Source: a virus
IMG/VR virus record: IMGVR_UViG_3300015360_000096
Location: 1 to 38,398 of that record
Length of the DNA stretch: 38,398 nucleotides
Reading direction: 5' to 3' (one strand)
Every line of letters begins with the position of its first letter. Within the stretch, counting starts at the first letter, position 1. The notes below the pieces were generated by a model, which was given only the letters and a program-made list of their open reading frames with translations, searched no databases and was not told the origin of the DNA. Made by a program: the position numbers and the translations under genes. Shown here one piece after another: positions 6,130 through 38,398 of this stretch.

Positions 6130-6780
6130 ATCGTTGGTCTATTTGAATCTTACAATCCAATAGAAAGAATTGCATCTAATCAACATGGTCCAAGTGTTAA
6201 TAAAATTACACGAGGATCATTGATTTCATTTCATTATCCACAAAGTTATGCAATGATTCCAAATGTCATTCATGATCCCTATCCAATGTTAATTGTTACA
6301 GATATATGGCCAAAATATATTCGTGGCGTAAATTTACATTACTTAACATTTCCTTACGTACAAAGACTACTAACAAATTACGGCGGCAAAAACTTCAGTT
6401 ATTTTCATGTCAGAAATGACAAGTACATGGCAAATGCTTTTAGAATGTATGTTAGGATGGGAGTCAAACAGCCAAAAAGACTTGATACAGAATGGTTAAT
6501 GACTGTTTTGGGAAGCGTGAGATCATTTGGTCCGGGCGAACTAGAACAAATCAGAACTAACATTCAAAAACAGATACAACAAAGATTACAAACTAAGGCG
6601 AACGAATTGACTTCATACGAACAATGGAGAAGCGAACTTACTCAATCGCAACAAAGACAGTTAAGAGGAAAGAGCTTAGAGGCGAAAGATATTATTACAG
6701 GTGGATTAGATAGAAACTTGATTAACTATCCACCAGAACAACAGTCTATGACAAACATAGAACCTGATACAAACTTGTAA
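6130..6780 (+). CDS. Conserved T4-type phage protein, apparent AUC start
   Basis: The frame is open from 6127 and reads as protein well upstream of the first canonical start (TTG, 6220): VGLFESYNPIERIAS, then ITRGSLISFHYP. AGG (6120-6122) plus A sits six bases before ATC at 6130; ATT at 6127 is closer. With AUC the product is 216 aa. The segment IRGVNLHYLTFPYVQRLL and the later FSYFHVRNDKYMANAFRMY are typical of a T4-like/cyanophage structural-region protein of unclear function. The C-terminus (about 140-216) is Gln-rich and helical. A one-base insertion in GAATTATC hiding an ATGAAT start is an alternative. The gene ends 9 nt before the tape measure. Confidence 0.7.
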   Translation: MVGLFESYNPIERIASNQHGPSVNKITRGSLISFHYPQSYAMIPNVIHDPYPMLIVTDIWPKYIRGVNLHYLTFPYVQRLLTNYGGKNFSYFHVRNDKYMANAFRMYVRMGVKQPKRLDTEWLMTVLGSVRSFGPGELEQIRTNIQKQIQQRLQTKANELTSYEQWRSELTQSQQRQLRGKSLEAKDIITGGLDRNLINYPPEQQSMTNIEPDTNL

Positions 6781-22264: not shown

Positions 22265-22279
22265 TCTGCAATAATGCAT

Positions 22280-22300
22280 ATCGCTAAGGAGGCGATCATG
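22280..22300 (+). promoter_or_regulatory. Hairpin presenting the endonuclease ribosome site
   Basis: ATCGC (22280-22284) pairs with GCGAT (22292-22296), leaving TAAGGAG in a 7-nt loop. With one bulge, the stem can extend into the ATG at 22298. The AAGGAGG site fixes the start at 22298 over the ATG at 22274. Phage homing endonucleases are often translationally restrained by such hairpins; the effect here is inferred. Confidence 0.45.
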
Positions 22301-23305
22301 TTTAATGAAAAACAATTACAGATTTTCACTGGATCTATGCTTGGTGACGGAACGATAGTGAAGAATTGGAAAAACGGAGAATCTTGCCGTTTTCAGATCG
22401 AACAATCTAAAACAGATCACAAAGAATATGATAAAAAATCATATATTGATTTTTTTATGAAACATTTCTATGATTTTTCTGTATCATTTAGAGAGTCTTC
22501 TGTGTTGGCAAACAAAATGTTTCCGTATGCTGGTTATGCAGAAGATAAATTGTTTGATCGTTATGTTTTCTATACTCACAATTTAAGATTTTGGGAAAAA
22601 TTAGAATCTAAGTGGTATGTACCTCGCACAGATCATCATAGATTCAAAAGACGTAAGATAGTTCCTACAGACATCAAACTGACGCCACTTACATTGTGCA
22701 TTTGGCACATGGATGACGGCAGCAATAACCAAAAAGATGCTAACATTGAGTTAAATACACAAAGCTTTACGGTTGATGAAGTAGATTTTTTGATCAATAG
22801 ACTTAAAGAAGATATTGGAATAAATAGTCACAAAAAAACTAGCGGTAGAAAAGAAGGACAATACAAAATTTACATTGGTCGCAACTCATACTTTGATTTC
22901 ATTGATATGATAAAGCCACATATTGAATGGGATTGCTTCAAGTATAAAACAGAAACCAGCGGATATACAAAAAAGCCACATCGAGGAGAAGACCATTCTG
23001 GATCTATTCTTACAGAAGATAAGGTTCATGATATATTTAGAATGAGGGATGAAGGCATGTTGCAGAAAGAAATAGCAGAGAAAATTGGAGCATCTAACAT
23101 CTCTGCTGTTTTATCTGGAGAACAATGGGGTCATCTTGGTCTCAGTAGACCAAAGCTTAAAAAACCACGAGTTACAAAAGATAAAAAGCGACAGGTAGTT
23201 GACATGAACTCACAAGGAGTTTCTCAAAAAATCATTTCAGAAACACTAAATATCAATCAAAGCACAGTGTCGAGATTGGTCAACCAATCTAACTTAAGAA
23301 AATAG
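22298..23305 (+). CDS. LAGLIDADG homing endonuclease with C-terminal helix-turn-helix domains
   Basis: 335 aa. Two LAGLIDADG motifs: IFTGSMLGDG (9-18) and LCIWHMDDGS (133-142), each with the acidic residues that bind metal. After the nuclease (to about 225) come two helix-turn-helix segments: DKVHDIFRMRDEGMLQKEIA onward (241-281, ending EQWGHLG) and VVDMNSQGVSQKIISETLNI onward (300-333, with STVSRLV). Such enzymes cut a DNA target to spread their own gene. It is inserted between tail genes, and a partial copy of its second HTH DNA lies 520 bp downstream. It appears intact. Confidence 0.88.
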   Translation: MFNEKQLQIFTGSMLGDGTIVKNWKNGESCRFQIEQSKTDHKEYDKKSYIDFFMKHFYDFSVSFRESSVLANKMFPYAGYAEDKLFDRYVFYTHNLRFWEKLESKWYVPRTDHHRFKRRKIVPTDIKLTPLTLCIWHMDDGSNNQKDANIELNTQSFTVDEVDFLINRLKEDIGINSHKKTSGRKEGQYKIYIGRNSYFDFIDMIKPHIEWDCFKYKTETSGYTKKPHRGEDHSGSILTEDKVHDIFRMRDEGMLQKEIAEKIGASNISAVLSGEQWGHLGLSRPKLKKPRVTKDKKRQVVDMNSQGVSQKIISETLNINQSTVSRLVNQSNLRK

Positions 23306-36237: not shown

Positions 36238-37227
36238 ATGCCAGTAGTAAAATCAAAATTGCCTATTCGAAAACGTATCGATTATAAAAGACCAGAACAA
36301 GTAAAGCCCACTCTTGGCCTTCGTGATTTTTACAACAAAAGAAAAAAAGTTTTAATTCAAAGAGGATGTGGCGGTCTAGGCGATATTCTAATGCACAGAA
36401 TGATGTTTGAAGATTTTAAGAAGCTTATGCCAAATGTAGAAATTCATTTTTCTTGTCCAAGTATTTACCATGACGCTTTAATTGATCATCCTTTCATAGA
36501 CAAAATTCTTGATTCAAACTCTGTCAACTATCATGATTACATTGTGCATTACAATACAACAACGGCTTGCGGTCGTTGGGAAATGACAATGGCTCCTATG
36601 TCTGGAAAGCACAGAAGTGATATTTGGGCTAATCATTGTGGAGTAAATCTTACAAGTCATGAAATGCACTTTCAAATTTCTGAAGAGGAAAAGAAAGATG
36701 GAAAAGACATATTAGAAAAACACAGAGACAGAAATGGAAAAATAGTTGTATTGGCTCCAATTTCAGCCATGCACAATAAAAATCTAACAGACGAATTGAT
36801 GGTTGAAGTGACTAATGGTCTTCGTGATCGTGGGTTTTTTGTCACTGGACTTCATGGAGGGCCTATATATGGATTTTTAAAAAACGACATACCAACAATT
36901 CATGGCCTTAGATTAAGAAAATGGCTTTCTGTAATAAATCAAGCTGATTTTATTGTAAGCGTTGACACATCTCACTTTCATGCAGCAGGAGGAATGAAAA
37001 AGCCTGTTGTTGGAATGTTTACATTCGTTAACGGCCCAACATATTCTTTGCATTATCCAAACGTAGAATTAGTCCAAGGTCCATGTCCATTAAAATACTC
37101 TGGGTGTTATGATTGGGGCAAATGTCCAAAACTTAAAGAAGAGCCAAAAGTTCCATGTTGTTCTGGAATAACTGCAAATTCTATACTTTCTGCATTTGAT
37201 AAATTGGCTTCTAAGACAGAAAAATAA
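36238..37227 (+). CDS. Glycosyltransferase family 9 (heptosyltransferase-like)
   Basis: 329 aa, GT-B fold. RGCGGLGDILMHRMM (42-56) is the N-terminal glycine loop of GT9 enzymes, followed by VEIHFSCPS and HPFIDKIL. The donor-binding half has KIVVLAPISAMHNKNLTDEL, then a VINQADFIVSVDTSHFHAAG stretch (about 231-250) ending in GG and KPVVGMFTF. These enzymes transfer a sugar from an activated nucleotide sugar. A C-terminal Cys cluster (about 282-312: CPLKYSGCYDWGKC then PCC) is unusual. Shine-Dalgarno is weak. It follows the virion protein terminator by 19 nt and may glycosylate phage or host surface structures. Confidence 0.75.
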   Translation: MPVVKSKLPIRKRIDYKRPEQVKPTLGLRDFYNKRKKVLIQRGCGGLGDILMHRMMFEDFKKLMPNVEIHFSCPSIYHDALIDHPFIDKILDSNSVNYHDYIVHYNTTTACGRWEMTMAPMSGKHRSDIWANHCGVNLTSHEMHFQISEEEKKDGKDILEKHRDRNGKIVVLAPISAMHNKNLTDELMVEVTNGLRDRGFFVTGLHGGPIYGFLKNDIPTIHGLRLRKWLSVINQADFIVSVDTSHFHAAGGMKKPVVGMFTFVNGPTYSLHYPNVELVQGPCPLKYSGCYDWGKCPKLKEEPKVPCCSGITANSILSAFDKLASKTEK

Positions 37228-37314: not shown

Positions 37315-37545
37315 ATGCCACAGATAGTCAAACAACCAAAGACGCAAATTAGAATCGTCCCGAAAGAAGGGGAGATAGAAATTACACTTAACATCAATAT
37401 TACAGTTGATGGTCAAGTGACAGCTAATTCAATAAATGCACAAAGTGTTTCTGTGGATGAAGAAGAGAAAGAAAAGGATGCTGATCCAATGATCCCTGAT
37501 TTCTTTTCTGGAACTAAACTTAAATTTGGAATAGACAATAAATGA
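37315..37545 (+). CDS. Small unrecognised protein
   Basis: 76 aa from ATG 37315 (an in-frame ATG at 37294 would add 7 residues; neither has a clear Shine-Dalgarno). Beta-strand-like stretch IEITLNINITVDGQVTANSI, then an acidic segment VDEEEKEKDADPMIPDFFSG. The stop overlaps the next ATG (ATGA). Function unknown. Confidence 0.5.
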   Translation: MPQIVKQPKTQIRIVPKEGEIEITLNINITVDGQVTANSINAQSVSVDEEEKEKDADPMIPDFFSGTKLKFGIDNK

Positions 37546-37736
37546 TCGGAATCTACGGAATCAAAAATAAAATCAACGGCAAGATTTACGTCGGGCAAAG
37601 CATTGACATCAAAAATCGTTGGACAAGTGAAACAAAACTTAAAATAAGAAATGCAATAACAGGAATTAAAAGATCTGAAGAAACTAAAAGAAAAATCAGT
37701 CAATCTAAACTTGGCAAGAAACACAAGGGGGAATAA
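37542..37736 (+). CDS. Shrunken GIY-YIG/NUMOD3 homing-endonuclease ORF
   Basis: 64 aa. It starts MIGIYGIKNKINGKIYVGQS, with GIY and YVG strands and the following KNRW containing the catalytic-type Arg. It then passes straight into NUMOD3-like DNA-binding sequence (RSEETKRKISQSKLGKKHKG). A full GIY-YIG domain is about 90 residues, so the central helices and the metal-binding Glu are missing. It is probably a deletion remnant, possibly still translated. It sits immediately upstream of a gene holding an intein. Confidence 0.65.
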   Translation: MIGIYGIKNKINGKIYVGQSIDIKNRWTSETKLKIRNAITGIKRSEETKRKISQSKLGKKHKGE

Positions 37737-38398
37737 TGGCAATTGGTGCAGACATGGGAACATATAATTTAGTAATATGCAAAAGAAATGCAGAAGGAAA
37801 TTTCGTTTACAAAAGAGAAGTAAACGCCTTTCTTGAGATGGAACTTGAGAATGACTTTGTTTTTAACATGATGAAGAAATCTGGAGTTCCATTAATTCAT
37901 CGGGAAGACGCCAACGTGGCTTACGCTCTCGGCGAAGCAGCCATTAACATGGCTTACACAATGAGAAATGTAGATCTAAAGAGACCAATGAAAGATGGTT
38001 GCGTAAACCCGCATGAACGTGACGCATTTCAGATCATGAGCATTATGATTCACAGTCTATTGGACGAAATTTCAAAAGACGGAGAAATTTTATGTTATTC
38101 AGTTCCAGCGAATGCAATTAACGAAAACACAGATGCCGATTATCACAGAAAAATTTTGGAAGCTATATTTAAAGCTTTCAAGAGCGAAAAAGGACACAAA
38201 GTTGATGCACGACCAATTAACGAGGCTATGGCTTTAGTTTATGCAGAGCTTGGCGAAAAAATGTTTACTGGGATTGGCGTTTCGTGTTTGTGTCCAAGAA
38301 CAAAAATATACACAGACAAGGGAATTGTAGAAATACAAGATGTCAAAATTGGGGATAAAGTAATCACACATATGGGCAAATGGAGTGAAATCAGCAAT
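37736..38398 (+). CDS. Actin/Hsp70-fold ATPase, interrupted by an intein (partial at window end)
   Basis: Open to the window edge; 221 codons seen. Phosphate-1 motif IGADMGTYNLV (3-13), a connect-1-like NEAMALVYAE, then FTGIGVS leading into the phosphate-2 loop of the actin/ParM/MreB superfamily. Such proteins polymerise or act as ATPases; in phages they may segregate or position DNA. At residue 184 the sequence switches to an intein (see separate entry). The ATG overlaps the upstream stop (TAATG) after GGGGGA. The C-terminal extein lies outside the window. Confidence 0.75.
   Translation, partial: MAIGADMGTYNLVICKRNAEGNFVYKREVNAFLEMELENDFVFNMMKKSGVPLIHREDANVAYALGEAAINMAYTMRNVDLKRPMKDGCVNPHERDAFQIMSIMIHSLLDEISKDGEILCYSVPANAINENTDADYHRKILEAIFKAFKSEKGHKVDARPINEAMALVYAELGEKMFTGIGVSCLCPRTKIYTDKGIVEIQDVKIGDKVITHMGKWSEISN
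38285..38398 (+). mobile_element. Intein N-terminal splicing region in the actin-like gene
   Basis: Starting at TGT 38285 the protein reads CLCPRTKIYTDKGIVEIQDV, then KIGDKVITHMGKWSEI. Cys1, the T-x-I-x-T of block A and the following IxDVKIGDKV pattern align with intein N-terminal domains (compare CLSYETEILT of DnaE inteins). It interrupts the phosphate-2 loop after GVS. The end, any endonuclease domain and the C-extein are beyond the window. Confidence 0.8.

Follow-up and report, generated by a model that had tools for sequence, protein, structure and literature searches.

A mobile intein at the phosphate-2 hairpin of volactin-like, predicted actin-fold proteins of large tailed phages

The gene at the end of the viral DNA analysed here very probably encodes a volactin-type precursor, in which the phosphate-2 hairpin of an actin-like protein is interrupted by a class-1-like intein (Cys1, a His-Asn end and Cys+1) with a LAGLIDADG endonuclease. 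The anatomy of this element, its fixed insertion site, the alleles that lack it, its in-frame conservation and its horizontal movement are all visible in related phage genes. Self-splicing, DNA cleavage and the inactivity of the unspliced precursor are predicted. The chemistry is ordinary; what is unusual is the host protein and the place of insertion.

Since the window, meaning the whole stretch of DNA that was analysed, is the entire virus record (38,398 bases), the volactin gene is truncated by the end of the contig. Its reading frame starts with an ATG at 37736 on the plus strand and is still open at the last base, 38398. Residues 1-183 (37736-38284, plus strand) form the N-extein, which is recognised as a volactin-family actin-like protein by Pfam PF25216 and by 53 viral relatives. 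Residues 1-184 of the reading frame match the Volactin profile with an E-value of 4.1e-31 and 109 bits over positions 1-173, against a cut-off of 35. The phosphate-1 motif region, IGADMGTYNLV (37742-37774, plus strand), was located by reading the sequence, and its G8, T9 and N11 are invariant among the relatives. The connect-1 region, NEAMALVYAEL (38219-38251, plus strand), corresponds to helix 163-172 in the model of an intein-free relative and leads into the phosphate-2 hairpin. The first strand of that hairpin, TGIGVS (38267-38284, plus strand), is placed by strand 178-184 of the model and by alignment to E. coli MreB.

The intein boundary lies between Ser183, whose codon ends at 38284, and intein Cys1 at 38285. 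From there to 38398 on the plus strand the frame encodes the first 38 residues of the intein, opening with block A (CLCPRTKIYT). These 114 nucleotides agree at 113 positions with a complete intein in the relative L002 and at all 114 with the insert of L005. An earlier note had read FTGIGVS followed by the start of an intein from this sequence, and the relatives, which show the whole intein at the same residue, bear that reading out. Profile searches of the window itself, which the same note had proposed, gave a divided result: the Volactin match is strong, while the Hint_2 match to residues 184-219 (E 0.001) is under the Pfam cut-off. The window alone is thus weak evidence for an intein, and the later blocks attributed to its truncated copy are predicted wholly from its relatives.

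The 53 relatives were found by scanning viral contigs with the window's N-extein as query. Further inteined volactin-like genes, all with the insert at the same residue, were added by intein-based scans and one scan of cellular genomes (L057, L059, L061/L062 and L068-L075). A whole intein of 367-372 amino acids, running from block A to a His-Asn end followed by Cys and containing a LAGLIDADG endonuclease, is present in 13 distinct loci, and in all of these the rest of the actin fold resumes in frame after it. For instance, the inserts of L002, L009, L012, L025 and L026 comprise 369-371 codons and end in LTIHN, after which the frame continues with CGAGMVNV and the remaining protein. They start with CLCPGTKIYT, except for CLCPETKIYT in L012. 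Complete inteins with the same type of end are found in L057, L059 and others. The earlier note had looked for a downstream splice block of HN before Cys, Ser or Thr and for a resumed GAG-type loop, and both occur in these relatives at the same site.

Empty alleles are equally well represented. About 30 distinct relatives are uninterrupted at this site (TGIGVS^CGAGMVNV), for example L003 with FTGIGVSCGAGMVNV. The allele lacking exactly the insert, FTGIGVSCGAGM, occurs in L003 and others, and MAFFT sets the insert between Ser183 and the next residue without adjustment. Because related phages show both complete and uninterrupted copies at the same residue, the element is, on the evidence of sequence, a real and mobile intein that moves between phages.

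All inteins found share this one insertion residue, even in volactins that are only 30-38% identical. Since the exteins of L061, L070 and L071 have diverged to that degree from those of other carriers, the insertion site is common to a deep family. When viral contigs were scanned with an intein profile, 16 loci emerged, every one of them in a volactin gene. No member of this intein family was seen in another protein among these 16 viral loci, although pattern-based scans may miss distant relatives. The scan of cellular genomes gave a single match, on a phage-like contig. This is L057 (RXKI01000042.1), filed in a Neisseriaceae metagenome-assembled genome, which combines an inteined volactin with the phage's conserved gene order. 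Probably this contig comes from a phage and was binned with bacterial sequence, which may hint at the host.

The host of the intein is supported as a volactin-family actin-like protein of phages, in part by a predicted structure. An intein-free relative matches Volactin (PF25216) over positions 1-321 with 228 bits and an E-value of 2e-67 (cut-off 35). It shares 33-35% identity with haloarchaeal plasmid-borne members, whose loop is alike (TGLGISFGAGMTNV). By sequence, the volactin profile gives only weak MreB matches among solved structures, and it was a fold search that identified the actin fold. The structure was predicted for the intein-free L003 (pLDDT 79.7), with the two huge-phage rows left out. 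The model matches MamK with a Z score of 24.9 (rmsd 3.2 over 293 residues) and MreB with a Z score of about 21-22, as well as BeeR and crenactin. Phosphate-1, connect-1, the phosphate-2 hairpin and the adenosine motif occur in that order.

In the model, the insertion comes at the close of strand 178-184 and just ahead of the turn into strand 188-195. This places it within the phosphate-2 hairpin, the loop for holding the phosphate of ATP. In a profile alignment that is statistically weak but falls where expected, VSCGAGMVNV lies opposite VDIGGGTTEV of E. coli MreB. By this pairing, the intein parts the residues that match the Asp and Ile of DIGGGT in MreB. The place of the phosphate-2 Asp itself is taken by Ser183, which does not vary among the volactins examined, whether phage or haloarchaeal. 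The proposal of the earlier note, an intein within the phosphate-2 loop of a phage-encoded actin-like protein (a presumed ATPase), is supported by the relatives' inteins, the MreB/MamK fold, the hairpin position and the MreB alignment. Support for a phage origin comes from the window's baseplate wedge and baseplate OB-domain genes together with huge-phage relatives. The baseplate genes point to a contractile-tailed phage; among the relatives are contigs of 234-459 kb as well as two records from huge phages, of 485 and 595 kb.

The complete inteins retain most of the expected splicing residues. All 13 keep Cys1, the block B His, the block F Asp and His, and the terminal Asn. Just before that Asn stands His in 12 of the 13 and Lys in L073, which ends in KN before Cys. 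Block B, which lies past the end of the window, reads VxxH instead of the usual TxxH in every copy, so that the His is kept and the Thr position is Val. Both acidic residues of the LAGLIDADG motifs are Asp throughout, and stop codons occur in none. Profile searches with a relative's intein gave 44 bits for LAGLIDADG_3 (cut-off 22.5), 17 bits for the TIGR01443 intein C-terminus (cut-off 15.6) and 28.7 for the Pfam splicing domain, under its cut-off of 35.8. A structure model of the precursor has low confidence across the splicing domain.

In pairwise comparisons of five inteins, pN is 0.09-0.25 and pS 0.69-1.05, alike in the splicing and endonuclease parts. Both parts appear to be maintained, since synonymous differences far exceed nonsynonymous ones. 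These features would fit class-1-like splicing and active homing. The residue after the insertion site is Cys in 13 of 13 inteined genes and in 15 of 31 intein-free genes (Fisher p 0.0013), an association that stands at 4:0 (p 0.125) with relatedness allowed for. In the other 16 intein-free genes it is Phe, Tyr or Trp. The constant Cys+1 of the inteined genes accords with the need of splicing for a nucleophile at this position.

The proposed mechanism starts with translation of the whole precursor. Its nucleotide pocket is split before splicing, and so it should be inactive. The intein would then fold and excise itself through an N-S shift at Cys1, attack by the extein Cys+1 and cyclisation of the last Asn. 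The extein ending in FTGIGVS would thereby be ligated to CGAGMVNV and a seamless volactin restored. The earlier note had raised the further possibility that filament assembly depends on splicing. The endonuclease may cleave, at the conserved site, empty volactin genes brought in by co-infecting phages. Repair of the break would copy the intein into the cut gene.

Evidence for horizontal movement can be found by comparing inteins with their exteins. On the extein tree, at least 11 changes between presence and absence of the intein are needed. The intein of L059 shares 71-75% identity with the inteins of L002, L009, L012 and L025, while the exteins are only 61-63% identical. Likewise, L061 shares 31-38% of its extein with other carriers and 52-58% of its intein with all inteins except that of L073. 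The window and L005 have the same intein start, although the extein DNA beside it is about 81% identical; such a match between two different phages is what recent transfer would lead one to expect. At L068 2482-3591 and L073 3001-4116, volactins that are 88% identical carry inteins at the same residue that are only 47% identical. Co-conversion of the flank together with a Phe-to-Cys change was considered for L072 and its intein-free sister L040. No tract was found, and identity stays level at about 86% as far as the site.

Three other explanations have been weighed. One is that the end of the contig fuses an unrelated intein fragment to a volactin gene during assembly. The contig does end after 114 nucleotides of intein, and the final 123 nucleotides (38276-38398 on the plus strand, 9 of extein and 114 of intein) are exactly those at the end of the L005 contig, which also breaks off within its insert. 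Two contigs ending after the same 123 nucleotides are as would come from a branch point in an assembly graph with k=123, presumably the value used, as in JGI practice. However, L002, L009, L012, L025/L026, L057, L059 and more, from other samples, have the junction inside longer contigs that show both boundaries and mostly the same upstream synteny. With both junctions present in so many other contigs this explanation was rejected, and its chance is close to nil. Another contig break in this region is found in L004, which equals L002 over the N-extein and ends at 6542, 4 nucleotides short of the intein boundary.

Alternatively, the insert may be a degenerate Hint domain, either a dead intein or one capable only of cleavage, yielding two fragments or an inactive protein. 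The Val in block B throughout, the Lys of L073 in place of the penultimate His and the low splicing-domain score would all agree with this. On the other hand, all nucleophile positions are retained, and Cys+1 is present in every inteined gene with a known C-extein. The reading frame is open through the C-extein and under purifying selection, whereas a dead insert in a conserved gene is expected to decay; a degenerate domain is therefore very unlikely. The remaining explanation holds that the intein has been co-opted, such that conditional splicing, for instance under redox control of its two cysteine nucleophiles, times the assembly of phage filaments during infection. The insertion site splits the nucleotide pocket, and in other inteins the chemistry of Cys1 and Cys+1 may be redox-sensitive. 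The patchy presence of the intein, its frequent change and its retained endonuclease fit a selfish element, and relatives without it manage. Co-option is thus improbable, but if such a switch were real, a mobile element would have become part of cytoskeletal timing. A self-splicing, mobile intein at the phosphate-2 hairpin of volactin is the reading followed here.

Among known systems, class 1 LAGLIDADG inteins are the closest in kind. They have the same blocks A, B, F and G, two LAGLIDADG motifs, empty alleles, horizontal movement and an insertion that is exact, in frame and placed in a conserved loop for nucleotide binding. They differ in that the host here has an actin fold and block B reads VxxH. 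Among annotated phage records, the nearest inteins found are only 21-28% identical and lie in genes for portal, terminase, methylase and thymidylate synthase. The only solved intein matched by sequence is the PI-PkoII endonuclease (PDB 2cw7), which resembles the C-terminal splice region; the match is weak (E 0.0016) and the host protein is a different one. In the literature searched, which comprised papers open without subscription, no earlier report of an actin-like or MreB-like protein with an intein was found.

On the side of the host protein, volactin VolA of Haloferax volcanii forms dynamic filaments in vivo (PMC10869688). It is alike in its full-length family match and in having the same phosphate-2 motif with Ser. 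In contrast, the present proteins are encoded by large tailed phages and are putative filament formers, and in the inteined genes the Ser is followed by Cys in place of Phe. AlpC of prophage CGP3 (PMC4446434) is also an actin-like protein of a bacterial virus.

Relatives of an archaeal cytoskeletal protein are thus carried by large tailed phages in a conserved gene neighbourhood, and the predicted splicing would give a built-in means to control a putative phage filament protein. Inteins are known to favour the active-site loops of enzymes for replication and packaging. This preference is now seen in the nucleotide loop of an actin fold, across deeply diverged phages. The genes also form a natural series, some alleles empty and others filled, with +1 residues competent for splicing (Cys) and unsuitable for it (Phe, Tyr, Trp).

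The usual gene block consists of a protein of about 200 residues, a glycosyltransferase-9-like protein, a protein of 70-85 residues, volactin and a protein of about 160 residues. In the most divergent carriers, L061 and L070, volactin has different neighbours. The window's glycosyltransferase-9-like gene (PF01075) lies at 36238-37227 and keeps its place ahead of volactin in most of the relatives examined. In seven distinct relatives that lack the intein, the space between the short gene and volactin holds a full-length GIY-YIG homing endonuclease; this gene is broken or partial in L022, L037 and L038. In the window, a 64-residue remnant of this free-standing endonuclease (37542-37736, plus strand; Pfam GIY-YIG and NUMOD3) sits at the same spot and abuts the volactin start. 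It consists of about the first 27 and the last 37 residues, joined in frame.

Two kinds of homing element thus occur at the same locus. An intein together with an intact GIY-YIG gene at the gap was not seen among the relatives examined. With seven loci against none, few in number and uncorrected for relatedness, this is suggestive of mutual exclusion. Elsewhere in the window, 22274-23305 encodes a separate LAGLIDADG homing endonuclease, which is free-standing and has an HTH region at its C-terminus (phrog_11023, E 7e-13). A tRNA nucleotidyltransferase-like gene lies on the minus strand at 116-1621 (phrog_2244, E 5e-25).
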